From NCBI GenBank assembly GCA_022539475.1, contig VCMS01000038.1:62001-126000 (forward strand): a stretch of DNA of 64,000 bases, in the 5' to 3' direction. Shown here piece after piece: positions 6,355 to 64,000 of this stretch. The notes beneath the pieces were generated by a model. The model did no database searches, was not told where the DNA came from, and saw only the letters and a list, made by a program, of their open reading frames with translations. The DNA is from Gracilaria domingensis (Eukaryota > Rhodophyta > Florideophyceae > Gracilariales > Gracilariaceae). Every line of letters starts with the position of its first letter. Position 1 is the stretch's first letter. A program made the translations under genes and the position numbers.

Positions 6355-7188
6355 AATGGCGCTGGGGGTGGCTGGTGGCAGCTTGTAGGGCGCCACTGTG
6401 GCGGGCGGTATCGTGTTGACAGCGCTGGCGAAGCTACTGAGCACGGTGGGCATCGGTGTACTCGCGGCAAAGCGCGGCATTTTGGATTCGGCCACGTTAG
6501 CAGCGTCATCTCGTCTGGTGTACAACGTCTTGTTACCGGCGCTTCTGTTCTCAAACGTGCTTACGACGTTTCGTAGCGGCGTTTCAAAGCAACTGGCGCT
6601 GATGCCTTTGGCGGCGGTGGACCGGATTGTGACGGGCTTGTTGTTCTCGCTGCTTATGGCGAGAGTTTTGAAGTTGACTCGTCGGGGAAGATCGCTGTTT
6701 TACGTGTGTGCGTAGTTTGCAAACTCCTCTGCCATGTCGTTGTTGTTGTGTTCATCGCTGTTTTCAAGTGCCAAACAGGTGGGGAGTATCTCTGCCGTGT
6801 CATTTTTTTGTTGGGCTGGTCACCGTTATTCTGGTCCATCGGCTTTCAGGTGCTAGATGCTATGCCATCCGCCTCTGCTCAGGCGCAAGATGAGAAGAAG
6901 AGCGCAATGTCCCTTACACAGTTCTTGAAGAAGTTGGTAACGCCGCCACTAGTCGCAAGTATGAGCGCATTGCTCATCGGGTTGAACCCGTTTCTGCGCG
7001 GACTTGTGTTGCGAACTCCAATTCCAGGCGCGTTACAAACATTGGGATCAGGCTATGGAGCCGCAGCCGTGCTGGTTCTAGCCGGCTCTCTAGCACGCAA
7101 GACTCCCAAAGAGTCGTCGACATCGTCGTCTGCTCTGCGCATCGGTCGTCTGTCGTTGGGGCTTTCGTCTGTCTCTTGCAGATGCTAG
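6355..7188 (+). pseudogene. PIN-like auxin efflux carrier, 5' portion, broken
   Basis: The frame from 6398 starts with a hydrophobic helix (VLTALAKLLSTVGIGVLAAKRG) followed by LVYNVLLPALLFSNVLTTF, the first two helices of the Mem_trans (PF03547) auxin efflux/PILS family. After a TAG at about 6714 the same frame continues with a family-like helix (FANSSAMSLLL). A further frame change near 6800 leads to FLLGWSPLFWSIGFQVL and then VTPPLVASMSALLIGLNPF, ending at 7188. There is no ATG in frame at the start; the nearest one (6355) is in another frame. The last family helices, with the MPSAQN-type motif, are missing here but occur as a separate fragment at 24.4 kb. At least two or three lesions, so non-functional. 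Confidence 0.65.
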
Positions 7189-7189
7189 T

Positions 7190-7740
7190 TTTTGGCGAGG
7201 GTCGTCCAGAAATTGGCAAGGGTCGTCCAGTAAATTTTTTGAAAAAATATCGAGATCAATTATTTCAAAATTTGCAGATAATTGCTTGGGTCGTCCAGAA
7301 TCGCTGTGCAGTAAATACTGGTGGGTTTTCCACTCGTGCCAGTTCTTTAGTCGAGGGCTACCTGAACTGTATTTCGCGAAGTCTAGGTTCAGTTTCCATT
7401 AAGGTGCACATTACACGATACCTTCTGCAGAATGATACCCTGCAACGCATGGAATACTAGTGCTAGTACAGATGATGCCCATTATGAAATCATACCGTTT
7501 TATTCGTATCTATTCTTCTATCGACCGCTTTTGCTAACCACTACTTCGCTATATTACATGTACCATTTCCCCATGATGGAGCGGATGTAGGCGCAATCTG
7601 CGGCAGATGCCGCAGAGGGCGGTATCGGTAGAAAAAATACGCACTCCGAGAGGATGAGGCGCGAAGCGCCTCATCCTCTCCGTTCCTCATGTAGGGAACC
7701 ATGCCCAGATGCATGGTTCCCTACTTGAGGAACCTGCACC
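7190..7740. repeat. GGGTCGTCCAG repeats and two strong hairpins
   Basis: Just after the truncated PIN-like pseudogene, GGGTCGTCCAG occurs three times between 7,198 and 7,300. At 7648-7680 there is a perfect hairpin (15-bp arms GAGAGGATGAGGCGC, 3-nt loop). At 7682-7733 a second one has 23-bp arms with one mismatch and a 6-nt loop. The hairpins stand back to back, immediately before the tandem array. They look like transposon end structures. No gene is visible in this stretch. Confidence 0.7.
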
Positions 7741-7773
7741 TACAACTCGTGAACTACGTCCGCATCAAAAGTC

Positions 7774-8664
7774 ATTTACCTGTATACGCAAGCAGAAAGT
7801 ATCCATAAGTTAGTCAATGATCCGTTGGATACATTTGAAATGCGATGGAACGTACCATTGATAAAGCAAAACAGAAACGTTGCGCTAGAAAAGTCGAGGG
7901 ACCTAGTAACTCGCAAAATGAAAAAGAAGAAGGAACGGGATTGGTTAGATTACCAGCCCACCATCATCGTAAAGCGCGAAAGGTGTCGAAGCCAGAACTC
8001 ACAAGCAAGGACACCAAGAATGCCCATGCAGCAGACATACCGCAAGATGCGATAAACGAGAGAGCAGCCTATGTCCCAACCAAGTACCAGAATCGCCTAT
8101 CCCGAACAGCCAGAGATCGATCTTGAGAGACGAAATGAAATTGGTCGTTTACCTGTATAAGAAAGCAGAAAGTATCCATAAGTTACTCAATGCTCCGTTG
8201 GATACAGTTGAAATGCGATGGAACGTACCATTGATAAGAGCAAAACAGAAACGTTGCGCTAGAAAAGTCGAGAGACCCAGTAACTCGCAAAATGAAAAAG
8301 AAGAAGGAACGGGATCGGTTAGATTACCAGCCCACCATCATCGTAAAGCGCGAAAGCTGTCAAAGCCAGAACTCACAAGCAAGGACACCAAGAATGCCCA
8401 TGGAGCAAACATACCGCAAGATGCGATAAACGAGAGAGCAGCCTATGTCCCAACCAAGTACCAGAATCGCCTATCCCGAACAGCCAGAGATCGATCTTGA
8501 GAGACGAAATGAAATTGGTCGTTTACCTGTATACGCAAGCAGAAAGTATCCATAAGTTAGTCAATGCTCCGTTGGATACATTTGAAACGCGATGGAACGT
8601 TCCATTGATAAACCAAAACAGAAATGTTGCGCTGGAAAAGTCGAGGGACCTAGTAACTCGCAAA
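7774..8664 (+). repeat. 373/374-bp tandem repeat, about 2.4 copies
   Basis: The same sequence recurs with starts near 7775, 8148 and 8522 (anchor TTTACCTGTATA). The second unit has one extra base, giving periods of 373 and 374. Copies 1 and 2 are nearly identical; the third stops at 8664 where unrelated sequence begins. Each unit contains an open frame of about 93-125 codons (7845-8126, 8123-8500, 8497-8724), rich in lysine, arginine and histidine, with a TTGAGAGACGAAATG junction linking one unit's stop to the next start. Because the unit length is not a multiple of three, the frame is not shared across all units, so I regard it as a DNA repeat rather than a gene. Confidence 0.8.
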
Positions 8665-8926
8665 AGTAACCCAAAGCCTTTTTCCTGCCGTTTACATGTC
8701 GCAGAGCGCGAAGAGACGTGGTGAGGATTGGTTAGTTTAGAACAAAGATACGTAGAAGGAAATGGAAGCACGTACGAAAAGACTGCACGGAAAGACTGCA
8801 CGGAATACATCCGTGAGATACGGATGCTGTCCGCTTTATGGAGGCGTCCGACGAGGGCGGAGAAAGAGAATGAGGTACGCTCCATGTCCGCTTAATGGAA
8901 TCCATTCTCAGCACGCTACTTCGTAA

Positions 8927-8992
8927 TCCGTCGTACTTTTTTCCGTCCTCGCACTTCGTAGCGAGTGCGAGGGCGGAAAAAAGTACGACGGA
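8927..8992. repeat. long hairpin, about 28-bp arms
   Basis: The left arm starts TCCGTCGTACTTTTTTCCG and the right arm ends with its reverse complement. The arms contain a matching CCTCGCACT/AGTGCGAGG block and differ at one position. The loop is about 10 nt. It sits between the tandem array and the transposase gene at 9.36 kb and could be a subterminal structure of that transposon. Confidence 0.7.
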
Positions 8993-9356
8993 GCGGAGTA
9001 GAACGCAAGGATGGCACGGATCACGACGGTAAGAAAAGGTCGGACGTCGGACGGGCGGCGGCGGCGGCGGAGGGAAGAGATTTATTTTTTTGTGCGAGAT
9101 TGGACAAGTGTACAGCGTACGACGTTGGGAAACCACAGGTTTATAACCAGTGGTAGATAATACGAGAAGTACAACTTTGTGTTGAGGTCGACGTGTACCT
9201 ACGTTCCTTTTTGAACGAAAGCACGTGATTTAAACTCAAAATATATTCTCCGTTCTGAGCAAGACGTCGATATTGACTGTCTCTCGACCTCCTTCTCCCT
9301 TCGGACGCCCTTCCTTTGCAGTCTTTGTCGTCGTTTCTCGTTCATTTCTTCTTCCC

Positions 9357-12300
9357 ATGGTCTACTACTGTACACATAAGAAGCGTGGGTGCCCCTTCGT
9401 TACTCGCCGAGGAGTCTTATCTCTTCAACAGCATGTCAACCATTGCCCGTTTCGTCTGAAAGCAGCGCTGGAAGACGACAATAGCCGGGCCATTCGGAGA
9501 AGCAAGCGTCTCAAGCTTTCCGCACCCGCGCCCGCATCTTCCGAAACGGTCACTGCCCCTTGTCGCCTTCCCGAGCCTCCGGTGTCCGAGGACATCGTCG
9601 ACCCCACTCCGTGCGCCCCTCCCATTCCGGACACTTCGCATTGTGTTTCTCCTTCCCCGGGTCCCGCGTCATTAGAGCGAGAACACGGAAGCAGTTCCCG
9701 CCCAGTGCCTTCTGGGGAGACCCTCGGTGATTTGCATATGGATTACCTCACGGTTTGTCTGGCTTCAGTAGCTTCCAACCTTGGTCATCGTGAGACAGAC
9801 GAGCTAATTAGGCTACTTCGGGACCTGCGATTCTCGCAAAAGCGATTCAACGAGACCATAACAAGTTCCAAGCGCTGTACAGAACTGAAGAACGCCATTT
9901 TCGAACGATACGCCTCAAAGGACGGTTTCAATCGAAGAACTGTCTCGCCAGAAGGATGTAAGTTCAGCGCCACCCTCTACACGAGAGACCCCGTTCAGAC
10001 ACTTGTGAAACAGCTCCAGTTGGCTAACAACGAAAACACATTCTTCTACTCTATACTTCAGACCCACTTCACGAAAATATCTCACCCCATGTCCGGCTTT
10101 CTCGCAAGAGACGCCACCTCAAAACTTAAGGAAATGGTCATGGGCTCTTTGGATAGTAGAATAGTGTGGTACTCCCAAGAAATAAGTTACAGTGAATCTT
10201 TCGTAGGTCTTCTGCAGGTATACACCGATAAGTCTTCAACAACTCTAAAGCAAACATCGGTTACCGCCTATCCTCTTCACCTCATATTTCTCAACTTCCC
10301 CGACGAGCTTCGCCGTAAGTGTATCCGTGATGACCTCACAGTAGTGGCATACTTCCCTACCACACTGATCGAGGTTTCCGCATCTGAAGCAGACGCAATG
10401 CCATTTGTTTCTAGCAAGTCTCTACGCGAGTCCAGGATGCAAATTCTTCAAGAATCTCTTCGTCAAGTCCTGGAGCCCATTCTAATTCTCACGCAGAAAG
10501 GTTTTCAGTTCATCGGCGAAGACAAACTAAGTCGAGTGTGCCATTCTCTGCTTGCAAGTTATTGTGCGGATATTCCTGAGGCTAAGGACATTCTGTCCAT
10601 TCTTCATGGGACCAAAACGGAAAGCCCGTGTCATAGATGCAAAGCCCCTCGCTCATCTTTATGCAGTCCTATTCCCACCTCATTCAACGGACGTTCTCAA
10701 AAGCACACAAAAAGCATCCGAAAGACATACACAGCTATCTTGCAACATGCACAAAAAGACGAGGCGGAAAGACGTCCACGTCGTGCGAGGGAGAGGAGAT
10801 CTCAAGCGGATACTCTGATGCGTTCAAATTCCATATCTCTCATTCCTTCGTTCCTCGAAACTTCCGTAAGCCTTGGAATGATCCCGAGATTGTCTCCATA
10901 CAGTCTGTTCTCATTCGAACCATTACACAACTTGCATCTCGGCATCTCAAAGTTGATAAAAACGGCCACAATCGAGAGACTGCAGTCAGACACCCTGTGC
11001 ACCACAATATGAACATCTGCATCGCGTTCATTTCAAACGATACGCACCCAACTTCTCAACCATGCAAACGCAATTCTAGCTGCCATAGAACGCGATTCTC
11101 CTGCCAAAGGTTTACATATCGATTTCTCCGCGCAGGAGAAAGGCAAATCTTTGAATGGTATCTTCACGAAAGACGGTCTCCGTGGAATGCTGGAGGCCAA
11201 AAACTACAAAGCACTTGACATGGTCTTTCCCTTCATAGGAGCATTCTTTGACATATGATGTGGAGAACAGGACGTTGCCCCAATCACAACCGTTTTCTCT
11301 CAGTACTCGGACTTGCTTTCGACCTTATTCAGATACAATCGTGACCCGTATTGGACTGAAAGCTCTCTCCTGTGTCTTAGTTCGGAGATTGAAGCCTTCA
11401 AGCGTTCCGCAACAAAGACTCTGGCGGATTTTCATCCCTCCAGACTGGGAACTCTGAAGTTTCATCTTCTCGATCATCTCGTGGACGATATTCGCCGTCT
11501 GGGAAGTATCAAGTACTACGACGCAGGCATATACGAACATGCACACCTGCTATTTAAGAGACACTACAAAAAGACGTCCAGAAGAACAGCAACGGCTGTG
11601 GAGGAGACTATTCGCTCCATTGAGCACGGACATGTTAGAAAGCAATGGAATGGCAATACTCCTTACCAGCGTTATCCAGGTTTACCAGGAACTTCCCCAC
11701 AGCTTCCTCGGTTTGCAATGAGAGGGCGTTCTTTCACTTTACGAGCTCTTCAACATTGTGTTTCAAGTATGTCCAGTTCAAAAACATGGACTGCTGTTAG
11801 AGAGATGTTCTCAAGTAGGGACAAAAGGTCGATTCTTGATCAAATTGGTGAACAGGCCCTTCCTTCTTTCCTCAGTCTCGTGAAAGAAACACTGGATGAG
11901 CACTCTATTACATACTTCCCAGAAAAGACAAGGATAACTCTGGTGAATTCGGCCCTCGTGAAAGGCGGTTTCGTTCCGACTCTTGAACACTTCGATTCGT
12001 CTTCTAAGTCACTTAAGCTGGGACGACCCAAATACCCCATCATCCAACGTGTCTTCGCTTCTCCAGCATTTGGTCCCAGTAGAAAGCCAAAGTTTTCCAC
12101 TGTATTGGTAAGCGGAGAAGATTCAGAGACTTGGGTTGCCCAGGTAGTCGCTCTGATTCGAATATCTCTCCTTGATTCTGCACTTACCGCACCAGAGGTG
12201 GCATTCTTCCGGTATTTCGAGGTTTTACCCCCCGCAACAAACATCGACCACATATTGAAATGCATATCTTTACGGTGGGCTACAAACGATGAAAAGAACC

Positions 12301-12710
12301 ACACTCTTCCGTTCCCTCGTCATTCCAAAGCGGAGACTATCGTAGAGTTAACTCCTTGGTACGGGATGGTTCCGGCTTCTGCACTACAGGGAACTGTCCA
12401 TGTCGTTCGATCAAACTACCCTGCTCCACCTTTTCGTCCTCCACTTCAATGGTTTCAACACCGATTCTACATCAATCGATTCTATCATGATTCAGATGAA
12501 GGACCAACTGTGGGTATGTACACAGATGGTGCATGGTTCACTTTTCCTTTCTTTTTCGGTTGTTTCTTCTTCATCATTCGGATGTTGTCGTTCTCTCCCA
12601 TTACGTGGCCGAGGTATGATAAGTATAGAACGACCTCAAATGGGTTCACAGCTGTTGGTGGGATGAACACTGTCGTCTTCAGAACCTGCTTTCTCCTGGT
12701 CATGAAATAA
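9357..12710 (+). mobile_element. Plavaka-like transposase with N-terminal zinc finger, in shifted frames
   Basis: The frame opens at ATG 9357 with a C-x5-C ... H-x3-C cluster (YCTHKKRGCPF ... HVNHCPF), a zinc-finger motif found at the start of Plavaka-type transposases. A second cysteine pair (SPCHRCKAP) and the block SFEPLHNLHLGISKLIK, equivalent to the LPFDxMHxLxLG region, lie at about residues 420-570. After 11,012 the coding signal moves to another frame (LRGMLEAKNYKALDMVFPFIGAFFDI, about 11,170-11,260), then to the frame of 11,313-12,710, which holds HLLDHLVDDIRRLG and YEHAHLLFKRHYKKTSRRT, the C-terminal helical block of the family. The changes may be introns or frameshifts; no clear GT-AG pairs were found, so decay is more likely. 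The last 300 codons have no recognised domain. Confidence 0.6.
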
Positions 12711-12832
12711 CCAACCAGGCATCGCACCGGTAGGTATATACCCATATCCATAGAGAGAAGGAAAAAATCGCGCAGTCTCTGGTCCTCATCCCCGTCCTTC
12801 TTGTCAAGAAGCTTCGTTACAAGATATCGTTG

Positions 12833-13132
12833 TTACACAGGTTTGTTATTCACAACACTCTTTCGCAGCTGTTGCAGTGTCAAGTTCTGCAGGTTCTTGG
12901 AGTTAGTGGCCTCCTCAAACATCTTCCTTGCCTCCGGAATATCCTTATAGTTCTCGGCGCAGAACTCAATTAACCCTCTAAACCCCACGTCCCGTGGCCG
13001 ATCAGGGCCTCCATCGCTGTTCGCCAAAGCATCGCGAAGAACCAAGAAAAGTCTGACATATGCATGGAACGCCGGAGGCGGAGCACTCATGTCGATAGAA
13101 TGTATCTCCTGTCCAACATCGGTGGAATCCAT
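12833..13132 (-). CDS. small divergent partner protein, 99 aa, unknown function
   Basis: A minus-strand frame with a true ATG at 13132, coding 99 residues. It is predicted mostly helical, with an alanine/proline-rich head (MSAPPPAFHAYVRLFLVLRD) and an acidic-then-basic C-terminal half. I do not recognise a family. It is notable for its position: it begins at the left arm of a mirror-image inverted repeat whose right arm lies 60 bases before the ATG of the large ParB/dioxygenase gene, so the two genes diverge from one symmetrical control region and are probably transcribed from matching promoters. A TTTAAA box lies about 30 bases upstream on its own strand. Coding status rests on the open frame, the ATG and this arrangement, not on similarity. 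Confidence 0.45.
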   Translation of the reverse strand: MDSTDVGQEIHSIDMSAPPPAFHAYVRLFLVLRDALANSDGGPDRPRDVGFRGLIEFCAENYKDIPEARKMFEEATNSKNLQNLTLQQLRKSVVNNKPV

Positions 13133-13144
13133 CGCTTCAGCGCA

Positions 13145-14046
13145 AACAACGGAGGCGAGCCTTTAAATGGCGACTTACGCTGGGCACCCCCGCTTTCGGC
13201 AGCTCCTCCCAGCGCACTGCCAGTCTCGTCCGTGTCCGTGTGCGCTCGGAGCGATAGCGTCGCATGTCGGAGCGATAGCGTCGCCTGTCGGCCACGTCGC
13301 GATTCGGAGCTATTGCAACGGTCCCGTATTGTGCTAAAAGTCGCGGATCAAGTGGGTGTGAAGCGCTAGTTTTCTCTAGTTTGATATATGTGCACGGCTT
13401 GTGCAGCGAAATCACTGCCGGAAGTGCCGGGAGGAGTGTTTTGGGAGGTCTCCGGAGGGTGTCAAAAAATCGTCCAAAACATGCCCGCGGGCGGGACGGG
13501 GGTCGGTCGTGTTAGGGTAGCTACCCTAACACGACCGGTCACCCCCGCCCGCGGGCATAAAATCGCACATTTTTCAAAAAATCGCCCAAAACGTGCCCGC
13601 AGGCGGGGGGGGGGGGGGGGGGGTCGGTCGTGTTAGGGTAGCTACCCTAACACGACCGACCCCCCCCCGCCGGCGGGCACGTTCTGGCCACATTCCGGTG
13701 CCTTCCCGGGATCTCGCAAAACACGCCGCCGCGCAGTGATTTCGCTACACCCGGCCGCCGGTACGTTGGCGCCGCTGTCCACGTGTATTTGCGGGAGTAG
13801 TCTGTACATGGAAGTGAATGAGTGTACTCTTGACTACTATGCAAAGCATTTGAAGAGCATGATTAGAGAACGCGACCATTGCTCGCGTGAGTCATCATTG
13901 CGCGAACTCCACGACTCTAAAGCGTACAATCAGTGTGCGAGCGGCCACGGACAGGACACGGAAGAGACTGGCAGTGCCCTGGGAGGAGCTGCCGAAAGCG
14001 GGGGTGCCCAGCGTAAGTCGCCATTTAAAGGCTCGCCTCCGTTGTT
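13145..14046. promoter_or_regulatory. mirror-image bidirectional promoter region with nested palindromes
   Basis: The outer arms, 13145-13240 and 13946-14046, are inverted copies at roughly 95% identity over about 95 bp; each carries CCATTTAAAGG (a TATA-like box facing outwards) and CAGCGTAAGTC. Inside lie less conserved inverted segments that share GCGAAATCACTG. In the middle are two hairpins, 13483-13556 and 13593-13680. Each is built on the same perfect 34-bp palindrome (13504-13537 and 13625-13658; half-site CGGTCGTGTTAGGGTAG), and each is flanked by G-rich and C-rich arms. The second contains an uninterrupted run of about 20 Gs. The whole region can fold as a large cruciform. It serves two divergent genes. 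Confidence 0.75.
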
Positions 14047-14105
14047 GTATCGTCCAGAGCGAGCGTATTGTTAATATACACCTTTCACTGCAATAGCTGT
14101 TCAAC

Positions 14106-17100
14106 ATGAAGCCAACTCGTGTTCGAAAGTGTACGCAAAGCGTGACTCCTTGCACTCGGCGGAGCACTCGATTATTGCAAGGTGGAATGCGGGTTTCTCT
14201 GCAGATGGATATTGAGGATGAAGGAAAGGTGATAGTCGGGGAAGCGTTGTTGCATGGAATTGGAAGTGTTCTACGCCGTGAGTTGCACGGGAAGCAATTG
14301 GACCTAGGTCTTGTGGTGGTTCATAATATTCTCATCAGTCGAAGCGGTCAGACGTTCTACACTTACCGGGCGGAGGGCCTGGATCTTCCACAATATATCC
14401 AGGATCTCCGGACGGCCGCTCCTTGGGATGAGAAAATGATGGAACCGGTGGCAGCCAGCATTCCGGCGTCGAAGCGAGGAACGGTGATCGCTATGAGTGA
14501 GGTGATGACGCCGACAAGCCGCACGGAGCCAATTCGAAGTTCATCAACACCGAGGGGTAGCGCATCAGTACCACCTCCGCGGGCAGGTCCGTCGTCTGTT
14601 ACGAAGCGGTCTATGGAGACGAGAGCATCCCCAGCTACGAAGCGGACAGGTCAAACAAAGTCTACCTCCGCTACGAAGCCCACTGCGTCGAAAAAGGCTT
14701 CTCCTGCGATGAATCAGACCGTCGACACAAGGGGATCTTCTGCGTCGAAACAGAAGGTTCAGCAGGGGACGGCTGTGCGAGAGGAGGAAGATGAGATCAT
14801 GAAAGGTCCCCTTCCAGACGCGGATGCGCAATCCGCGCAAGGAGCTGGTCCATCTGTACCCCAAACTGCACCAGAAACTGCGGAGCAGCAAGACGATGAC
14901 GTTGTGCTTCTGTCCGCAAGAATGGCAGGTTCAAGTGTTTCTGGCGAGCGGTCTGGAACACAAGGGACACCTACTCGGAGCAAGACGTACAGACGAATTC
15001 GTCAGAAGGTACCAAAGGTGAACCTCAATCAGTACCGGATGGTTGTTGTTACTGTTGACATCACTCTGATGGACACTCCGCCCAATTTACTCCGTGGAGT
15101 AAGTAAACGCCACGTTGAAGCCCTTGTGAAGAGTATGGAGGAGCGGGGGATATTGCAGTCGATGGGTTCTCCAGTGGTCGCCTTACAAGATGCTACTACG
15201 GGAGAGAGGGATACTGACAAGGGACGCCTAACGAAGAAGTGCTTCATTGTAGATGGTTTGCATCGTCTGAAAGCTATACAATATTTAGCAGCGACTGGTG
15301 CACCGAAGTGGAAGCGATTAGCCAAGTTTTGGCGTTGCAATCTGCTGATACGAAGAGATGGGAGGCCCATTGGGATGAAGGAATTGTTATGTGTTGCTTC
15401 GTACCTCAATAAGTCGACGAGTACCATGCGAAGGATGATGTTTGCAGACAAGATACACTCTATAGTTAGTGTGGTCGCCATTCTAATTGAAGATGTTGAG
15501 GGGGTGACGCCGGCAGACGTGGATCCTGCAGAAGTGACAGAAGTGTTGAAGGAGAGCCAACTGATTGGGACTGTACAAGAGCGTCAGTATCTGAGATATG
15601 CCAATGTCGCCCTGCAACTCATGTCTCGTGAGGGAATGCTGGCCCATTTTGAGGATATATGTAAGACTGTGAGTGACATAGGTCTCACACATCTGTCCCA
15701 TACTCCGCTATATGTTTTGGATGCCGAGGAGTTTTCCTTCATTCTTGATTGTCTTCAGATGTTTCTATTGAAGGGCAAGTCGACGAAGACAAAGCAATGG
15801 AAAAGCTTTGAGGAGGTTCGAGGTTTCTTTTATGATAGAGCAGTGTCTCTGTTCCGTGCGGCTAGAGCAGTGAGGAATGAACTAAACGAGGAAGAGTCCA
15901 TGGAAGTGTTCCTGAAACGCGAAGTCAGTCTTTCTGCTCCATCGAATGAAGATGACGTTGAAGACCCAGACAACAACGCAGCCGTGTATCAGTTCCTTTT
16001 GGGACAAGTTGTGAACTTCAACACATTGCCGCGTGTTCGGAGCAGGACGAACTCAATTAGAACTGCCACGACTTCCGTTCAGAATCGATTGCGGACGATG
16101 CTCAAGGTAATTCCGCCCCCCGTACCAGTGAAGCAGTCCGTGACGAAGAGGAGGACTCCCGCTGCTGCTGCTGCAACATCTGCCAGTGAAGAAGGGGAAC
16201 CGCGAAGAAGTGCACGAGAACGGGCGCAGGTGAGTTATAGAGAAATTGAGCACGGCCGAAATCGAGGTGTCATAGAAGTTCTGGATAGCTCTGAAGAAGA
16301 ACAGCGGGCTCCGCCGAGGAAGAAACGGAGAAAGACTTTCACACAACAGATGAGATCTACTCTGAACAGCATGACACCAGATGACCTGATGTCTCAACTA
16401 AATGAACATGTGCTGAGAGGAAGGTCGATGAAGGTTCAGTTCGTGGCATTGGGAGAGGGAGCGAATGCAGAGAACGCAGGCATTTCTGCATTTGTGGATG
16501 ACGATGAGCTTCTTTCTGTGACAGTTCCACGGGTTGTCACCGTCGAGAAAGATGCTGCGCCAGACGATCAGCAAGAGACAGGTGGGGGGTCATTTGATGA
16601 CGAGTTACCTACAGCTCTTCCGGAATCTGAGGAGCACGGACTTGTTCGAGGTGACCCATATGATGGCCCACCGAACCCATCATGGTGCGGGTATGCCAGG
16701 CTGAGACGGCAGGAATGGCAAGGGAAGAACGTAATTGAGCACAAGGACCCCTGGCTCAGAGTCATTCACTTGCCGAAGGGACATAGGTCGGAGCTGCTAA
16801 GTGTCTCGAATCTCAGAGATGTACACCATCTTGTCTTTTGGCACGCTGCAAGGGCTGAACATCGCCTACGGGCGGAGACATTTGGTATGCAGTATCCTCG
16901 TACTCGACCGACAGGTATGGATGATGAAGAGGTGCTGTGGGTTGCTGCGAAGGAGCATGAAGAATTTGGGCAAATGTTCTTCGCCCGAATGCAAGCTGAG
17001 CTAAGGCAGAATGGATATTGCGTGCTTGATGGCTTTGCGACGGATAATGGTGTCCCTAAATGGGAGGAGTTGGAAGAAGTTCGGGAGTTCGGAGATGTGT

Positions 17101-18022
17101 CGGGGAAGTTGGTGGACTTCTTCGAGAATGAGTATGGAGCGATGCCGGATATACGGAAAGGAGAGGAACAGAAGTCGTTTGTTCAAATAATCAACGATGA
17201 TGAAGGATGGAAGGACGGTAGCGATGGACCATTTGAGGGGAGAGTGATGTCGACACGTTGGGGTACGGTGGAGAAGCCGGAGGATAATGAGGAGCTCAGG
17301 TGGGTTGTAAGTCGCGTGCTTTACTTGATGTTCGAATGGGTACAATTGCTGTGGCTTTGGGACTATGGGACAATGAAAGGGAAGCTGTGAAGATGTACAC
17401 TCCGAAAACTGGTGGTCGATTTCTGGGGACGACGAGAAAGTGCAAGCGCCAGACGCTGCACACCGACTTCAGTGGTCTGGTTACGAAGGAAACAATGAAT
17501 ACTGGCAACCCCGGATACTTTGTAATGGCCTCTGGGAAAGAGGGCTTTCCTCTCTGGGTGAGCGCTGGAAGCCATCAACTGGTGGGGATGAACAACCAAC
17601 AGTTGCGAGTGATGTCGGAGGTGTATCCAGCGAAGAAGATAATCATCCCACCGTACTCTGTATTCGTGGGCCGTGGTGATGTGACACATGCTGGAGCAAG
17701 TGGGAAGGACAAAGTGGTTAGGCCCGAGTCTATGGATTTGCTGGTTAGATACCACATGTACATGGTACCAGAGGGCTACGCACTACCTGATGCTGTTCAT
17801 CGGGTGCGTGATTTCCGACCCACATTTGTCAATGGTGACGAGGAGGAGGAGGCGGAGGATGAACTGTTGTTCGATAAGGAGGGTGGGGCGGTTGACATGG
17901 ACGAGGACCAAGTGGTCGTGGAGATTGGTGTGGAAGCGGACGCCGGTAGAACCGAAGTGCTCGAGAGTAGTAGTGATGACGATTTGCCAATAATGAGGCT
18001 GCGAGCGCCTCGAAGTGGATGA
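14106..18022 (+). CDS. ParB-like domain and 2OG-Fe(II) dioxygenase fusion protein
   Basis: A frame of 1,094 codons opens at ATG 14106. Residues about 100-305 are low-complexity and serine/threonine-rich. Residues 305-430 resemble the ParB/sulfiredoxin-like N-terminal fold, with MVVVTVDITLMD, an SMEERGI helix and DGLHRLKAIQ in place of the ParB GERRxRA box. Residues 650-760 are basic and disordered. From about 969 (NGYCVLDGF) a double-stranded beta-helix dioxygenase begins. Its iron ligands are in another frame: the HxD pair in LHTDF (His codon 17459, Asp codon 17465), the distal His in VTHAGAS (17687) and a 2-oxoglutarate-type Arg in LVRYHMY (17747). The frame changes between 17,306 and 17,392. 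Either one base is lost near 17,350, or an 86-nt phase-0 intron starts with GTAAGT at 17307 and ends with AG at 17392. Substrate unknown; a nucleic-acid role is inferred from the ParB part. Confidence 0.65.
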
Positions 18023-18410
18023 GAATGAGATGATTAGTAAATTATGTGTGTCTTGCGAGTATTAAGAGTAGTATACTATTACAAGGCTATACATATGAAC
18101 ATAGAAAAGGTGCGGCAGGCTGGTAATTGAACAAATGTCAAACGTCTTTGGTCCAGTTGCGTCTAATTGCAACATGCCAAATGCTCAGTATCGTTAACAT
18201 CATTGGTGGCACCAGTCAATTCGCAATTGAACATGTAGCGTCCTAACATTTCTGAAACTGCACTTAAGGTTGCTTTTAAGAGAAGTATGAAACTGAGAAG
18301 TCTATACAGTTCCTGTCTATGCGGTACTTGTGGCAGTATGGTGACTGTATCAGGAAAACTGGCAGAGGAACAGAGAGACTTGGCGAAAATTTCACCAAAT
18401 ACCTTGTCTT
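18023..18410. other. intergenic, no gene seen
   Basis: AT-rich spacer between the dioxygenase gene and the HAD paralogue. A pyrimidine-rich tract ending CTTGTCTTAG at 18402-18411 looks like a 3' splice site and could feed the following frame from an upstream exon I cannot identify. Confidence 0.4.
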
Positions 18411-19198
18411 AGTTCATATATGCCAATGGTTATGGTATATTAAGTTCCGTTGATGGAACGTTGAGAAGAGAAGGAGAGTCAATTCCAGAAGAAGTTGTGA
18501 AGTGTATGAAGTTCATTGACGAACATGTTGGTTTCGGACTTGTCACAGGGGGTGATGTGGGCGACGTGGAGGGGAAAATGGAAGGACTCGGAGACTATAA
18601 GTTTGGTGTCTCGGCGAATCATGGAGCTTTCCTGCGTTTCTCTGACGAGAGGGAAATTAAGGGTGCATTCAATGATCAAACCCTTGACCACACTGTTGAC
18701 GGACTACTGTTCCTGGCAAGGGATTTGAATAGGAGGCATGGTATTGTGAATGATGATGACAAGGGGTTCGTGGAGACCAGAAGTGATAGTGGCCTTCCCA
18801 ATTTCGTGTACAACAAACTGTGGCAGTGGAAAGAAGAAGTGGATTCTGCTATTGGGGACCTGTTGCAGAAGATGGATGCGTTTGTTATCTATCCCGGCGA
18901 TAAAAGTTGCGAAAGTGTGGACAAGCGATACACAAAAGGAAGCGGAGGAGAAAATCTTGTGGATAATGAACCGAGATTTATTGATACGGATGACGTCGTG
19001 ACATTCGGAAGTGCTTTGAGCGACGGGCCTTTGCATGAGGTAGGCGTGTACGGCGTTCACGTCAAAGAAGATTGTATCCCGGGTGCAGTACACAACCTGT
19101 TCGAAAGCGTGGAGGATGTACATTCGACAATTATGTTGGTGGCTCTGTTGTACGGCTACGAGGAAAAGCAGCACGATAAAAACCACCATGAATCATAA
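18411..19198 (+). pseudogene. HAD-IIB phosphatase paralogue without catalytic aspartates
   Basis: The frame is open from just after a TAG at 18410 to 19198 (about 262 codons), with no ATG until the conserved fold has already begun. It aligns end to end with the minus-strand gene at 19,251-20,123 at roughly 40-50% identity. The active-site blocks are changed: motif I reads SVDGT where the partner has DVDGT (nucleophile lost), motif II reads VTGGD instead of ATGRD, and motif IV reads GSALSDGP instead of GDASNDGP (metal ligand lost). The motif III lysine (YTKGSG) is kept. With no stops or frameshifts over 245 codons it could be a maintained non-catalytic protein rather than a dying gene; the missing start favours a pseudogene or a 5' exon joined at the splice-like site before 18,411. 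Confidence 0.65.
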
Positions 19199-19250
19199 AA
19201 GGGTATTGAGATATATACGACACTTTTATTACTGAGATCTCATATCATAG

Positions 19251-20123
19251 CTAAGTATTACAGGCATCGTAGCACTTGAAACAAATTCCAAGAGCATTTC
19301 TAAACCATTGACACTTGCATTTTCTGTACCCGTACAGTTCTGCCACCCTTCTGATGGTCTCATGCACGTCCTCCACCCCATCAACAAGATATGTTACCGC
19401 TGCTGGATGGTCTTCTCTCTTCACATGAACTGCCAGAGTTGCCATTTCATATAGAGGGCCATCATTGGAAGCATCCCCGAAAGCAACGATTAAATGTGTG
19501 TCGAACTGGGGGTCGTTTTCAACCAAGGCTAGCGCCCCACTATTTTTCGTGAAACGAATGTCCCCTATGTCACAGTTTTCATCTTGAGGGTACGCAACCA
19601 GGTTCGGAAAGGATGTCAACACTTTTGAAATACCGGAGTTAACTTCTGTTTTCCACTTCGACAGTCCATTGTACGTGAAGTTAGGGAGTTCACTGTCTTT
19701 TCTAGTGCTCACAACTGCTTGTTGACGCTCTTCGTGAAGTCCGTGCGATTCATTTAAGGAGAGTGCAAGTCTCTCAAGTTCGGCTGCACATCTTTCGTAG
19801 CCTTCCCTGTCAAGGTCCTGATCAATTTCGGTACCATTGGATAATCTCACCCGTGCGCCTTGGTTTCCAGAGATGCCAAAAGTGTAGCCACCCAGGTGCT
19901 CCATGAAACTCTCGGCATCCTCTATATCTCGCCCAGTAGCAATTCCGAAACCAACGAGTGCGTTGATGTACTTCATGCATTTGAATGTTTCGGCAGGAAT
20001 GTTCTCCCCAGCTCTTTTCAGAGTACCGTCAACATCACTAATCACGGCGTAGCCATTTTCGAATATTTCGTTAGCCAGCTGCTGAGGAGTTACTTCTTGG
20101 GCTCTAACTTCTGAGTTACACAT
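19251..20123 (-). CDS. HAD-IIB (Cof-type) phosphatase
   Basis: A complete minus-strand gene of 290 residues starting at ATG 20123. Residues 27-40 carry motif I (VISDVDGTLKR: Asp nucleophile and acid/base Asp two residues later), then motif II (ATGRD), a cap domain of about 110 residues, motif III lysine (RFTKNSG) and motif IV (VAFGDASNDGPLYEMA) holding the magnesium-binding aspartates. This is the HAD superfamily IIB pattern shared by Cof, mannosylglycerate-phosphate phosphatase and trehalose/sucrose phosphatases. The substrate cannot be told from sequence; a phosphorylated sugar is the usual choice. The last 20 residues are cysteine-rich (CKCQWF ... CFKCYDACNT), an unusual tail. It converges with the inactive paralogue, the two stops lying only 52 bases apart. 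Confidence 0.85.
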   Translation of the reverse strand: MCNSEVRAQEVTPQQLANEIFENGYAVISDVDGTLKRAGENIPAETFKCMKYINALVGFGIATGRDIEDAESFMEHLGGYTFGISGNQGARVRLSNGTEIDQDLDREGYERCAAELERLALSLNESHGLHEERQQAVVSTRKDSELPNFTYNGLSKWKTEVNSGISKVLTSFPNLVAYPQDENCDIGDIRFTKNSGALALVENDPQFDTHLIVAFGDASNDGPLYEMATLAVHVKREDHPAAVTYLVDGVEDVHETIRRVAELYGYRKCKCQWFRNALGICFKCYDACNT

Positions 20124-20751
20124 GTTTTGAAAGCTTTCGAAAGGGTTCGTTTTGCAAAATGGGTGTGGGTATACGAATGAGAAGGATGTGATTGATGTTC
20201 ACAAGGTGTTTCGTAGTATAAAAAGAGTCTAAGAACGACCATATACGGGTATTGTAGTACTGTTTTAAAACGTTACTAGGAGGAGAAGTTTTTGCATCGA
20301 TTTGAAGTAAAGAAAGGATGATTTAGTTATAAATTATATGTACGGGTTCAAGTGGGTAAAGAAAACTGTAAATATCTTTAACATGAGCTTAGAAATCAAG
20401 AAGAGTAAAACAACCTCCATTACGGGTTGAAACCCATAAAAGGTTTACCTTACTTTATACGGGTGCCCCAAGTAATGCAAACGCTTAGTTCTTCAGAAAT
20501 ATCACAATTTTTGTACTTGTTTCGTTACTAGTATCGTGCACTTTAATGATATGGAATGACCATTTTCTATCTAGCAAAATCTAAGCGAAGTATTAGTGAT
20601 AACGGATGTAGGATTTAAAGGGGCATATTTGAACCACAGAAGGACGAACAATATAAGTAATGTAATAGGAACAGGTCATTTCGATAAAGTAACTTTTATG
20701 TTTAACTATCTCTAAAAGGTTTACAACACCGAAAAGTCATGTGTTCTAACC
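20124..20751. other. AT-rich spacer, no gene
   Basis: About 630 bases without a supported frame. A TATAAAAAG at 20217-20225 faces right, away from the HAD gene. Nothing else stands out. Confidence 0.45.
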
Positions 20752-21654
20752 TCAAAGCTGGGGGAATGGGGAGGGGGATAACTTTTCCTTAACAACGTTG
20801 ACGTAGTTTGCATGAAAAGGAGCGGGGTCAGCGCCTACAATGTTTCTTTCTTGGCGGGAAAAGAGGTAGAAGTACGCGCTCCTAAACTGAAAGTCGGAGA
20901 AAGAAGTAGGGAAGCCAACGAGAGTTTTCCCATATGCAAGAAGTCGCCCAACGGTCTCTTCCAGGTTGAAAGTAGTACCTGTCTTAAGCGAAACTATCTT
21001 CAACAGCTCTTTCATTATTGTGAGCACAACCGTACTGCACTCCGTAGCGACTTCGTTCATAGGAATGAAACCTCTTGAGGCCCCGACGATGTTGAACGCT
21101 GATAGCCACACGAGCTTCTCATAATAGCTTACGAGAAATGTGTCTTCGTCGACAACCCCGCAAGTGAGACCCATAGACCTAAACCTGTCTGCAACGTTGG
21201 AGGCCCACTTTCCTGTTGCGACAGTGAGACCATCCGGATTTTGAGGAGTGACACCATCCTGCGGAGCTGCGTTTCTTGAGGGGACACCAACGTATAGGAC
21301 AACTTTTGAACATTTGTCCACACCGAGCTTCGAAAGCAATGGTATGATGTCTCCATTCTGGAAGAAAACGAGATTCTCTCTGAGCGAATAAGGGCAAGCC
21401 TGAATTACGGTCTCCAGGGTGTTCGTTCTTCCACAAACTAGTATCGGTACATCAGAAAGATGAGAGGTAGCAGCCATGCTGCAGAATTCGTGTGCGGAAA
21501 TGACCGTATCTTCTTCGTTCGCCAGCATGGTACCTATACGCCCCCTTCCAACAATAACGGCCCGAGTCCTTCGGGCGGGAGATGAGGCCTGAGGGACGTC
21601 AGAGTATCTGGGACTCGGAGGCGGAGTGGGAGGCATGTCGGACTGGGAGTTCAT
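20752..21654 (-). CDS. ketopantoate reductase-like NAD(P)-binding protein
   Basis: The minus-strand frame is longer, but the first true ATG is at 21654 (MNSQSDMPP), giving 300 residues. After a proline/serine-rich leader of 25 residues comes a Rossmann start (AVIVGRGRIGTMLA) with the G-x-G-x-x-G pattern shifted to GRGRIG. Next is PILVCGRT at the end of the second strand, then ENLVFFQNG, the N-G block seen in ketopantoate reductases. A helical second domain follows, with YYEKLVWLSAFNIVGASRG (the family's K-x-x-x-N region with a catalytic-type Lys and Asn) and a long C-terminal helix set. The family reduces 2-oxo acids with NADPH; true pantothenate synthesis is not certain because eukaryotic relatives often have other substrates. 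Single exon, no lesions. Confidence 0.65.
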   Translation of the reverse strand: MNSQSDMPPTPPPSPRYSDVPQASSPARRTRAVIVGRGRIGTMLANEEDTVISAHEFCSMAATSHLSDVPILVCGRTNTLETVIQACPYSLRENLVFFQNGDIIPLLSKLGVDKCSKVVLYVGVPSRNAAPQDGVTPQNPDGLTVATGKWASNVADRFRSMGLTCGVVDEDTFLVSYYEKLVWLSAFNIVGASRGFIPMNEVATECSTVVLTIMKELLKIVSLKTGTTFNLEETVGRLLAYGKTLVGFPTSFSDFQFRSAYFYLFSRQERNIVGADPAPFHANYVNVVKEKLSPSPFPQL

Positions 21655-22055
21655 TGCAAGTGTTCGAATGTTTTTGTGTGACGATAGAAATGGAAGATGG
21701 GGCGGAGAACTGCTGGGGTAAAGAGTGATACTTAAGTAAAAACGGTTGGGAAGCGCAGAACGGGAACATGGTTCACTTTGTGAAAGTGAGCGAAATGTAT
21801 GATATGTGATTGTACTGAATGAATGATAGGGCTTGTATGAGACGACAAGCCACAAAGTGTGATGATTTTTTATGAAAGGTAGGTGGAAGAGTAGAAAGTG
21901 CGCAATGAATGAAACTGATTTCGAACCTGAGTTGTAAAGTAGTTGTAAAGTACGAGTTACGGGGAGCTTGAATACAGGATGAAAGGAGCCATTTTGGCTT
22001 CATAAATGACGTGAACGGGTTCTATACCTTCACTTGGATTGCCATAATTAAAACG

Positions 22056-22372
22056 ATGGAGTTGGATTGCGCCCGAATACGTCTATAAAGATCGTAGAAG
22101 CACTTATGAAGGAAGGAGTTGTAGACATGTTATTGTTGATGACGGTGGAGCCAGGGTTTGGAGGACAGGCGTTTATGGAGGCTGTTCTTGATAAGGTGCG
22201 ACATGCAAGGGAGTTGTACCCAAGAATAGGGATACAGGTGGATGGAGGTATTGGACTGAGTACTGTGAAAGCAGTAGTGAAGGCCGGTGCAAACATTTCA
22301 GTTGCAGGATCTGCCATCTTTGGCTCGAGTAACCCAGCTCATGTCATAGCTGGTTTTCGAAAGGTTGGTTAG
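22056..22372 (+). pseudogene. rpe: ribulose-phosphate 3-epimerase, C-terminal half only
   Basis: About 105 codons that match the second half of ribulose-phosphate 3-epimerase, a TIM-barrel enzyme of the pentose phosphate and Calvin cycles that converts ribulose 5-phosphate to xylulose 5-phosphate. The block VDMLLLMTVEPGFGGQAFM contains the family's M-x-V-x-PGFGGQ signature with its phosphate-binding glycines. IQVDGGIGLSTV holds the catalytic Asp and GGI-phosphate loop, and VAGSAIFGSSNP is the last phosphate-binding strand. The match begins abruptly near 22,056 and the first barrel strands with the metal-binding His residues are absent upstream. The rest of the frame is intact. The PGFGGQ region is preceded by unrelated AT-rich DNA, so this looks like a broken copy from a larger gene rather than an exon. 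Confidence 0.75.
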
Positions 22373-22419
22373 AGATAGTAGCATAAATTTATTGTTTATT
22401 ACATTTTTACCTTTACGTG

Positions 22420-22790
22420 TTATCACGACTATATTCTCCGTGTCCATTGGAGATGTACTTCTCTTGTATCACAACCGGGAAAGGATGTGAGAGAACATCA
22501 ATATATCCCCAGTGGACGCTGAGAGGGAGGATGAACTACTCTACGTGCTACCATTGTTACCCATCCGGTGTCGAGTGGTGACATATTCTTTTTTTGTCAC
22601 AACCCACAAAGGATGTGACGGAAGAAGAACATGCCCCCAGTCGAGACAGAGGGTGAGCAACTCTAAGGACAATCACTAGTCCCTAGCTTGCCTCCACTGG
22701 CAATATCTTCCTGTTTTGCTATAACCATCGAGTGGGGTTATGGTGGAAGAGAAAAATATCGCCGGTCGAGGCGAGGTGGGTGGGGACTAT
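22420..22790. repeat. three diverged stem-loop units in tandem
   Basis: Three imperfect hairpins sit at about 22459-22494, 22586-22627 and 22708-22749, spaced 122-127 bases apart. The middle one pairs GTCACA with TGTGAC around AACCCAC, with outer TTCTT/AAGAA; the first pairs around ACCGGGAAAGG; the third pairs TAACC with GGTTA. Between them similar C-C-x-C-C and GTCGAG blocks recur. The unit is too diverged to be a recent tandem duplication, while the pairing is kept. Confidence 0.6.
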
Positions 22791-23005
22791 GTGAAGAGGG
22801 GACAGAGAGATGGAGCTTAAATAGTGGAAGGTGCGGAGGTGTATAGTAGATGTTTTGGCGGGAAATGGGATGAGGGAAACAGGGACAATCATGGTGCTGG
22901 ATATAGCCCGTGTGGTTGGACAGTGGGGGTGGACAGCACAGTTTAGCTCGATTGCACTGTATCGCAGCGGAAACTTCGATCCAACTACTACTTCTTCTTC
23001 TGAAG

Positions 23006-23935
23006 ATGTCGAACGGATACGTGAAGAATGAGGAGCTGTTGGCGCTGTTGGAGGGGGAGAAGGTACCGCAGACGCCGTGACCAAAGCGGGAAGAGGACGT
23101 GATTACGGCGGCTGGTCGGATGTCGCAGAAGAAGGAAGTGGCTGATGAAGGAAAGAAGTGTGAGGCGAGGAGAGAGGATGGTGATGAGGTGGAGAAGAGG
23201 GTAGAATTGGAGGTGGAGGGGGTCGCAATGGAGAGAAGGGGTGCGGTGCATCTGAGTCAGTTAGAGGTTGGAGACCAGATAGAGAATGGGGGCGGAGAGG
23301 GTGACAGGGAGATGCGGTTTGTGGGGGAGATGAAGGCGAGAGTGGGGATGTTGGGGTTGGTGATGAAGGAGCAACTGGACGATGGAATTGTGGAGATTGT
23401 AACGGAAATGGGCGGTGTGGTGCTGAGTGGGGGTGGTAGTGGTGTTTCGGTTGAGGCGATTTCGAGCCTGCGGAATTCGTTGTCGGTATTGGGAGTGGAG
23501 ATGAGAAATCATGTGTATGGGATAGTGGAGTGTGCGGGAAGGGAGGTTGGAGAGTTGCGGGAGGAGAATAGGGTTCTGAACGAGAGGTTGGACGTGCTGG
23601 AGAAGGAGGTGAAGGAGCTGTGCAAGAGGCAAAGATTGGTGGAAGAGGAAACGGTGAAAGGAGGTGTGGAGGGAAAGACGGAGAAGGAAAGTGTGGGAAG
23701 GGTGGCGGTGCAGAAGGGGTCTCCTGTGACACCGAAGACAAAGGGTGGTGGGGTTGGGGATGGGAAGAGCCGTCTGAAGAAGAGGCGTAAGGAGATGAAA
23801 AAGGTGGTGGAGGAGGTGCCGCGGGAGGGAGTCGGAGCTCCGGTGGTGACTGGGTTTAGGAGTGCGGCGGAGGTAACGCGGACTGCTAAGGGGATTCTGA
23901 GGGGACAGGAGGAGAGAAGGATGGGAGGGATTTGA
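23006..23935 (+). CDS. acidic/glycine-rich coiled-coil protein of unknown function
   Basis: A frame of about 271 codons follows ATG 23120 (MSQKKEVADEG). It contains a clear heptad region (LREENRVLNERLDVLEKEVKEL) at about residues 155-185, then a lysine-rich segment (RLKKRRKEMKKVVEEV) near 220, and glutamate/glycine-rich DNA around both. A separate ATG at 23006 opens MSNGYVKNEELLALLEGEK and stops at 23,080. A 66-nt intron with GT at 23063 and CAG at 23126-23128 would join this 19-codon exon in frame to KKEVADEG, removing the first three codons of the longer frame. The donor is weak (GTACCG). No family recognised. The plus strand here is strongly G/A-rich, so open frames on the opposite strand are compositional shadows. 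Confidence 0.35.
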
Positions 23936-24384
23936 AGCCGTTTTGGGGCGAGGCGGGTATACGAGAAGGGGGAGGGTTGTCCACCTGACTTCTACAAAAT
24001 GACGTTTGCGGAGACGGAGAGAGAGGATGCGAACGCGTGATGGGCGAGAAATGGGTAAATAGCGGGGTTGGTGTGGACTGGGAAGAAGTGATGGGATGAT
24101 TGAGGTGGGATGAGTTGCGATTGGCATTGCAACATGGGAGAAAGTGGAAAGGCAAACCAGCACGAGTGCAGTTTTGAGAGAGGGTCGCGGAAAAGAGTGA
24201 ATGGGGTGGTGCGGCGAAGTAGAACCTCTACAAAAAGTAGGGACCCAAGAACTAAACTGCGCGAAATGGAATTTAATATTCCAAAATTTCTTAATTTTTT
24301 GAGTGCCAGCCTCTGTTACCCGCTCGCGCGCCCCAAATAGCCCCAAAACTAGCTTATTTTCCAAAGCGAACAGACTATATTCTA

Positions 24385-24664
24385 CTTTGCAGAACACAGA
24401 CGTTCGTTGTGTCGGTTTGTTTTGCTGCCTTTGGTTGTGTTCTTCAGCGTTCTGCGACTGCGAATTGATGACTCGTTCGTGAGATTTGCCATTCTGCTTC
24501 AGAGCGTCATGCCGTGCGCGCAGAACGTGACGGTGGTGCTGACGTTGCAGAATCGGCCGAATGCGGCGGCGGTGGCTGCTCGATTGCTGTTGGCGGTTTA
24601 TGTGATAGACGTCGTGCCCATTGCTTTGAGGCTGACGCTTTTTCTCGCCGCTTCGGGACTTTGA
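24385..24664 (+). pseudogene. PIN-like auxin carrier, C-terminal fragment
   Basis: About 85 codons, open without interruption, that match the final helices of PIN-like/auxin efflux carriers: RFVLLPLVVFFS (the helix after the cytosolic loop), then FAILLQSVMPCAQNVTVVLTL, which holds the family's MP-x-AQN motif, and a last hydrophobic pair (VAARLLLAVYVIDVVPIALRL). It lacks the N-terminal helices. The preceding TTCTACTTTGCAG at 24380-24392 resembles a splice acceptor. The 5' portion of a carrier of the same family, missing exactly this part, lies at 6.36-7.19 kb on the same strand. Confidence 0.6.
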
Positions 24665-62800: not shown

Positions 62801-64000
62801 CGCAACGCAAGGCACGCTGCAACCTCAGGGGCGACCTGATGAAACCAGGTCTGCACTACGACCCTCAACACACCACCACATATACTGCGGACCGCACTAC
62901 GCAAAGACTTCTTCTTGCATTACATGCAGCAAGAAATTACCCCTTAGAACACTTCGATATCAAATCGGCGTACTTGCACGAAACATACCAGTACAGCAAA
63001 CCAGTCTATGTACGACAGATGCCCAAATTCGACGGCAAGTACAGACACACAGGCAAGTACGGCCAGCTGCAAGGAAATCTCTATGGCTCACCACCAGCAG
63101 CCTACTACTACAACCACGGACTCAAACAGTACCTCACCAAACTAGACTTCCATCCATCGGAACACGACCCATGCCTCTACACAAAGACCACGGAAGAAGG
63201 CTTTACTCTTATCAGCACAACCATCGATGACTTCTTCGTACTGGCAACAAACAGTAACCTCATAGATCAACTACACACACAATTGCTGCGCAAATACAAA
63301 GTCAAACGACTCGGACCACCTACCCGATTTCTCAACTGGACCATTCGGAGATCCAACGATGGAATTCATATATCTCAGCCGGACACCATAGATGCACTAC
63401 TAGTGCAGACGCACATGGACCAGTGCAATCCAGCGTTAACTCCATATAACAACGTACAACCCCTCGATCAGCAACAGGACAGTGCACCATTAACACCAAC
63501 CCAAGCACATCACTATCGCACCATCTTAGGAGAAGTGCGATATATAACGGATAGCACACGACCTGACATTCTATACGCAACAAACAGGTTAGCACAATAT
63601 ATGAACAAGCCGCAACAGCATCATTGGAAGGCGCTTAAAACCTTACTGCGATACCTCAAAGGGACAAGAAAGCACGGCCTCCTGTACAGACACAATAACA
63701 AAGACCAAACCTCGCAACTCGAAGCGTACAGCGATGCCGATTATGCCAATGCCAAGAACCGAAAATCAATCACAGGAAACATCCACATACTCCACGCCAC
63801 ACCAGTATCATGGGCTTCACAAAAGCAAAATGTGGTAGCTCTTTCCACAACAGAAGCGGAGTATATTGCGGCAACAAACGCAACTAGGCATACCAACTGG
63901 CTCAGAAACCTTCTTCGATCTTGTCAAACAAAACAACACCAACCCACTCCGCACTACATTGACAACCAATCCGCAGTCCTCATAGCTACCAACCAAGCAC
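59851..64000 (+). mobile_element. Ty1/copia retrotransposon, intact gag-pol frame, 3' end beyond window
   Basis: One plus-strand frame stays open from 59,851 to the window end (4,150 bases, no stop). The first ATG in frame is 60118, giving at least 1,294 codons. Domains in order: gag helices with YTYWEFSIRNYAKNLQ and a zinc-knuckle-like C-x2-H ... H-x4-C (60,841-60,900); aspartic protease FLLDSGATPSH (about 61,070); integrase HH-CC (WHIKLNHAHPGK, TCTACN) and its DDE core (SSDTCGPV, FRTDNAKEY, QENSIAERFNRT); reverse transcriptase (HFDIKSAYLHE, TTIDDFFVLAT); RNase H (AYSDADYAN, LSTTEAEYIAATN). Every catalytic residue I checked is present. The coding strand is strikingly C/A-rich. It may be a recent, competent copy. 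The 3' part and the long terminal repeats fall outside the window. Confidence 0.9.

Follow-up and report, generated by a model that had tools for sequence, protein, structure and literature searches.

In the window analysed here, a 64,000-nt stretch of the red alga Gracilaria domingensis (contig C38:62001-126000 of a 77.9 Mb assembly in 680 contigs), a gene predicted to join a ParB-like domain to a putative 2-oxoglutarate (2OG)-Fe(II) dioxygenase is almost certainly part of a Plavaka-type DNA transposon. A sequence-only reading of the stretch had proposed that this ParB-2OG gene is carried by a repeat or transposon, and that proposal is now strongly supported by (i) its copy number, (ii) defined ends and (iii) the characteristic placement of a Plavaka transposase gene and a DNA methyltransferase gene. 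The element is a real and unusual multi-gene transposon, and its fuller copies encode both a DNA methyltransferase and a SET protein. Coordinates of all features are collected in the table below.

The genome contains at least 150 copies of the ParB-2OG gene. All 150 that were scored, the best of 547 first-look candidates obtained with the C-terminal 240 amino acids (aa) as query, are 91-100% identical to the query, and many copies are broken; the count bears out the repeat nature of the gene. Four copies (window, C165, C100 and C22) have one left end in common and three (C22, C18 and window) one right end, with different flanks. The termini at these four left and three right ends read CGTCTG..CAGACG, and neither TGT..ACA (PlavakaA) nor CATCA..TGATG (PlavakaB), the fungal termini, was found at them; the element is therefore Plavaka by its transposase and stands outside the two fungal lineages by its termini. 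The flanks of the window copy, the one copy with both ends read, are TTT and TTC and share at most TT, where a duplication of 2-3 bp is expected of Plavaka. The C6 copy was considered as a further sharer of the left end and rejected, its homology starting only at window position 7454, 288 bp further in. The left subterminal part also holds a 374-bp tandem repeat of 2.4 copies (window 7771-8665), with repeated matches in C165, C100, C6 and C22.

Of the 150 ParB-2OG copies, at least 35 have a methyltransferase match divergently 3-9 kb upstream, whereas each of three control arrangements gave 0/150. This count is a minimum, since scoring covered 150 of the 328 methyltransferase candidates and contigs are often interrupted between the two genes. 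The transposase also pairs with the methyltransferase: 31 of the 123 Plavaka matches scored, from 672 candidates, have a convergent methyltransferase 2-9 kb downstream (controls: 1, 2 and 0 of 123), and 27 of these 31 pairs are spaced 5.3-5.9 kb.

Read from left to right, C165 and C100 carry the Plavaka transposase (+), a coiled-coil open reading frame (ORF) (-), a SET ORF (-), the DNA methyltransferase (-), a mirrored region, ParB-2OG (+), and then HAD-type ORFs and others; frame breaks are present in these fuller copies as well. Relative to C165, the window copy lacks about 5.2 kb at 12508/12510, a deletion that removed the coiled-coil, SET and catalytic methyltransferase parts and left the methyltransferase N-terminus in place. 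A full-length element is estimated at about 22.5 kb by combining the left half of C165 with the right half of the window copy. The left breakpoint GGACCAAC is common to window 12508 and L018:2963, and the right joins differ (12510 vs 14976). L026 was ruled out as a third copy with the 12508 breakpoint, since it continues there like the full element. We also rejected a subtelomeric element, suggested by 20 scored ParB-2OG copies that start no more than 5.2 kb from contig starts (17 on the + and 3 on the - strand) and by several methyltransferase matches likewise at contig starts; assembly breaks at the foldback region would explain this bias better.

The reading frame of the window copy is interrupted. 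Where the sequence-only reading had seen one eukaryotic gene, the stretch consists of two overlapping frames, 14106-17390 (1094 aa) and 17300-18022 (240 aa), and two other genome copies, L009:2095-6012 and L010:4075-7992, hold an uninterrupted, intronless ORF of 1305 aa. Because both read as a single ORF, the window copy has a frameshift or an assembly indel. A spliced gene, for which a GT...AG pair fits by eye at the frame change near 17.3 kb, is ruled out because both copies are open through that place. The five motifs named earlier, DGLHRLKAIQ (residue 383), NGYCVLDGF (residue 969), LHTDF, VTHAGAS and LVRYHMY, are all present. Stretches around 20 copies (19 of 10 kb and one of 7.1 kb) were compared; pooled over 20 ParB-2OG copies, whose pairs are not independent, the synonymous difference is about 2% and the ratio of nonsynonymous to synonymous differences (pN/pS) is 0.56.

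Kinship of the N-terminal domain to ParB is suggested by profile matches that are weak yet specific and whose controls are clean. The four best PHROGs matches of the isolated 145-aa piece are all ParB families (E 3e-4, 5e-3, 5e-3 and 0.1), and the whole 1094-aa frame gives one ParB match (E 0.0037). For the diverged homologue L038, phrog_3264 ranks third (E 0.11), after two families of unknown function. None of eight control sequences (one reversed, seven shuffled) matched ParB in PHROGs, where they gave four chance matches to unknown families. Neither window frame gave any match in Pfam (E up to 10) or NCBIfam (E up to 1), and the ParB piece searched separately gave a weak Pfam match to GmrSD_N only (E 0.079). 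A single-sequence AlphaFold model of this part has a mean predicted local distance difference test score (pLDDT) of 38.

The dioxygenase assignment is putative and stands on motif order and conservation. The HxD...H...R residues of the Fe(II)/2OG site are all kept in one diverged homologue, 44% identical over 140 aa; the single-sequence AlphaFold model of the window dioxygenase part has a mean pLDDT of 31. The candidate C84:17500-18399 did not hold as a second diverged 2OG sequence. Viral contigs yielded no confirmed relative when P0001, one methyltransferase and the 2OG alignment were searched against them, and the 2OG alignment, the only one tried against GTDB genomes, gave no result there.

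The methyltransferase and transposase are assigned by family searches in the fuller copies, with Plavaka PF18759 at E 8e-19 and PF01555 (N6_N4_Mtase) at E 1e-16; SET PF00856 reached E 2e-6 in a second family on C22 and only E 0.07 in a first-family fragment (L033). In the PDB, the methyltransferase is closest to the adenine-specific enzymes DpnA (E 4e-9) and CcrM (E 5e-7). Its PF01555 domain has a DPP[FY] motif ahead of an FxGxG-type motif, an arrangement that we take to denote the beta class and N6-adenine methylation. Phage matches to it number 88 records, with identity below 30% among the 20 matches listed. Three partial PF01555 matches (profile positions 80-217) at C382:10484, 36683 and 110684 lie in open frames of about 1170 aa and look different from the transposon type. 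The phycobilisome linker domain PF00427, an indicator of red algae, has 14 matches in the assembly: contig C680 has four, and the remaining ten are spread over eight further contigs.

The gene set extends to diverged families. The methyltransferases of the window type (L033) and the C22 type (L029:3072-5564) are 37% identical over 364 aa, and a C22-type query found further methyltransferase places at 55-69% identity, C157 among them at 64%. The convergent spacing of Plavaka transposase and methyltransferase is nearly constant in the window-type and C22-type families and also in C157 and C132. On C157, transposase, methyltransferase and a diverged ParB-2OG gene (L038, L039) occur together; its 2OG part keeps LHTDF, RGDVxHAGA and RYHMYMVPE; stops, frame changes and an N-run interrupt this copy. 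The set of transposase, methyltransferase and ParB-2OG predates the recent burst. At C22:690200-695763 (L029:1-5564), immediately to the left of the first module, lies a second, diverged one with methyltransferase, SET and coiled-coil genes and with a Plavaka match at C22:687175; it represents another family of the element, either nested or fused at this place.

Between the divergent methyltransferase and ParB-2OG genes lies the mirrored region, whose 93-nt arms are separated from the start codons of the two genes by 13 and 60 nt and are complementary to 98% in the window and 100% in L027. This position beside both start codons suggests one mirrored promoter shared by the two genes. The palindrome around CGTGTTAGGGTAGCTACCCTAACACG has 317 exact places in the genome, against 0 for the reversed control, with proximity to ParB-2OG checked for a part of them. 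Its 24-base core, at no more than two mismatches, occurs in 2-6 copies in 12 of 40 fetched loci, in addition to two in the window; L022, L025 and other loci spanning the region have no core copy at that threshold, and many of the 40 loci do not cover the region. In the C157 element, another inverted repeat, of 95 nt (86%) and different from this one, lies upstream of the ParB gene.

We tentatively propose, with a confidence just below an even chance for the mechanism as a whole, that the transposon is a self-directed epigenetic module, possibly one that includes both a writer and an eraser of N6-methyladenine (6mA). The methyltransferase and the SET protein would give the element permissive marks. 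The ParB domain would recruit the dioxygenase to the DNA of the element, possibly at the palindrome arrays within its own promoter, and the dioxygenase would there oxidise a methylated base or a histone, by which the marks would be reset or tuned. The purpose, we infer, would be escape from silencing. The earlier suggestion of a nucleic-acid-modifying, possibly self-directed system finds an N6-adenine-type methyltransferase and a SET gene in the same element on its side, while action of the dioxygenase on nucleic acid and targeting by ParB stay conjectural. A more specific version, to which we give a rather low probability, is a self-addressing epigenetic switch: the element would methylate itself and set its own SET histone marks, and ParB, bound to the shared-promoter palindromes as bacterial ParB is to parS, would deliver a dioxygenase that erases or converts base marks, so that activity would be timed. 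A parS-like role of the palindromes can be imagined by this analogy.

Several observations weigh against the self-directed module. The sequence-only reading had named a ParB-type fold and a complete iron/2OG site; the PHROGs families and their controls speak for ParB kinship, and the residues present and kept in the 44% homologue speak for the site. On the other side, the ParB scores are low, PF02195 did not match the ParB piece, a PDB profile search with the ParB alignment gave chance matches only, and the dioxygenase had no fold or family match in Pfam, NCBIfam or PDB profile searches. The family of C157 keeps GxHRL in its ParB part, with the Asp of DGxHR replaced by Gly; ParB-2OG was read in two families only, and the copy of the second is itself broken. 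The nonsynonymous/synonymous ratio between the open copies L009 and L010 is 0.86, with little constraint visible within the recent burst. Finally, 115 of the 150 ParB-2OG copies have no scored methyltransferase upstream, within the candidates scored and on contigs that often end there.

The strongest rival is that the dioxygenase acts on protein, by histone lysine demethylation or transposase hydroxylation, with ParB as a mere DNA tether. This reading, possible though unlikely in our estimate, draws on the SET-domain gene in the same element and on a GSH motif between HxD and the second H, which we take to be reminiscent of PhyH-like enzymes; the direct divergent partner of ParB-2OG is a DNA methyltransferase and not the SET gene, however, and no JmjC or other protein-hydroxylase family was matched in Pfam.

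Less probable than either the self-addressing version or a protein substrate is a distant TET/JBP enzyme whose oxidation of 5-methylcytosine would let the element escape silencing, the role proposed for the fungal Plavaka elements. Fungal Plavaka families do carry TET/JBP genes, and their PE type was recognised by structure-based comparison, according to the excerpt of PMC12730594 considered here. In the red algal enzyme, however, the motif is HxD and not the HxE hallmark of the PE type, and the Tet_JBP profile gave no match at E up to 10. The C5-methyltransferase family PF00145 was not found in the host genome by a six-frame search, in which intron-rich genes could be missed and which gave matches in 10 of 14 control genomes. 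Slightly less probable again is a ParB domain that serves as a nuclease or as a partition-type factor for transposition or copy maintenance, with a dioxygenase that repairs alkylated DNA. Nucleases occur among ParB-superfamily domains, and GmrSD_N is the one Pfam echo of the ParB piece; no AlkB-type family was matched in Pfam, and the second Arg pattern that we assume for AlkB-type enzymes was not seen by eye in the dioxygenase, which counts against repair. Passive cargo, that is, captured hitchhiking genes without use to the element, is very improbable: the right-half HAD-type genes look like cargo, many copies are broken and the pN/pS values, pooled and between the two open copies, would fit, but families whose methyltransferases are 37% identical share the transposase-methyltransferase layout, and a second family retains ParB-2OG together with its catalytic residues.

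Features of the transposon and of its ParB-2OG gene in the window
Feature	Position	Strand	Basis or remark
ParB-2OG gene	14106..18022	+	frameshifted near 17.3 kb in the window copy; 1305-aa open ORFs in other copies
ParB/Srx-like domain with DGLHRLKAIQ (15252-15281)	15006..15440	+	PHROGs ParB families, sequence controls
2OG-Fe(II) dioxygenase-like domain	16980..17842	+	limits approximate; spans the frameshift; motifs and homologue conservation
Dioxygenase motifs	LHTDF 17456-17470; VTHAGAS 17681-17701; LVRYHMY 17741-17761	+	
Plavaka-type DNA transposon	7166..24402	.	internally deleted; ends common to copies with different flanks
Left terminal inverted repeat CGTCTGTCTCTTGCA	7166..7180	+	12/15 positions match the right end
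Right terminal inverted repeat CGTCTGTGTTCTGCA	24388..24402	-	end comparison
Plavaka transposase, N-terminal and central part	9273..11012	+	PF18759 E 9e-19
Remaining Plavaka transposase frame, cut at the deletion junction	11313..12508	+	alignment to the C165 copy
DNA methyltransferase N-terminal remnant, catalytic part deleted	12833..13132	-	homology to C22/C165, there continuing into PF01555
Mirrored intergenic region	13145..14046	.	93-nt inverted repeat arms 13145-13237 and 13954-14046, palindromes between
Palindrome around CGTGTTAGGGTAGCTACCCTAACACG	13503..13538	.	317 exact genome places
Second palindrome copy with G/C-run extensions	13612..13671	.	repeat/palindrome search
HAD-like ORF fragment	18461..19198	+	no Pfam match itself; fuller copy L025:6232-7179 matches PF08282 E 5e-5
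HAD-type hydrolase	19251..20123	-	PF08282 E 8e-14
ORF with GxGxxG-like start, dehydrogenase-like by eye only	20752..21855	-	no Pfam family
Lys/Glu-rich ORF near the right end	23099..23935	+	no Pfam family above cut-off

The two HAD-like genes (18461-19198 and 19251-20123) are arranged tail-to-tail, and SVDGT in the first replaces DVDGT of the second. Elsewhere in the window are a piggyBac-type DDE_Tnp_1_7 transposase ORF of 595 aa (52294-54081) and a Copia-type retrotransposon ORF with RVT_2 and rve (59887-63999), open at the window edge.

Transposons that carry a single epigenetic enzyme have been described before. If the proposed module is real, a writer of DNA methylation, a writer of histone marks and a putative eraser targeted to DNA would be united in one element, of which at least 150 related copies stand in a genome where the search found no C5-methyltransferase. 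Whether mobile elements can run a methylation cycle of their own could then be tested directly, and bacterial-type adenine methylation would have been brought into red algae via a mobile element. A literature search over titles and the beginnings of abstracts, with few subscription journals, found no report of a DNA writer, a histone writer and a ParB-dioxygenase together: the single ingredients have precedents in the excerpts of the sources compared below, and for the combination and the ParB-dioxygenase fusion the search found none. ParB is not mentioned in the main text of PMC12730594, and the excerpt of PMC6431247 contains no Plavaka. The excerpt of PMC12695648 links 6mA to permissive chromatin.

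Among the closest known counterparts are the fungal TET-bearing Plavaka elements (Kojima 2025, PMC12730594, excerpt), which likewise combine a Plavaka transposase and an Fe/2OG dioxygenase gene, there of the TET/JBP type and with HxE in the PE type, in one element; the red algal element differs by its CGTCTG..CAGACG termini, by a ParB-fused dioxygenase without TET/JBP match and by its methyltransferase and SET genes. CcTET, which oxidises 6mA in duplex DNA (PMC12730594), is also a transposon-related dioxygenase, but a true TET/JBP, whereas the red algal enzyme has no Tet_JBP match. A transposon-encoded SET domain is shared with HarbingerS and MuDR, for which the passage citing them in PMC12730594 names no DNA methyltransferase or dioxygenase. 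Transposon-encoded DNA methyltransferases are found in DIRS elements with Dam-like adenine methyltransferases and in DNMT retrotransposons, both cited in the excerpt of PMC5890265; these are retroelements for which it names no dioxygenase, whereas the red algal methyltransferase is of the PF01555 type and sits in a DNA transposon. Finally, bdelloid N4CMT (PMC8885841, excerpt) is, like the red algal gene, a captured bacterial-type PF01555 methyltransferase in a eukaryote that lacks C5-methyltransferases or, in the case of the alga, has none detected; N4CMT is a host gene with a chromodomain that silences transposons, whereas the red algal gene, with motif DPPF/DPPY, is owned by the transposon.

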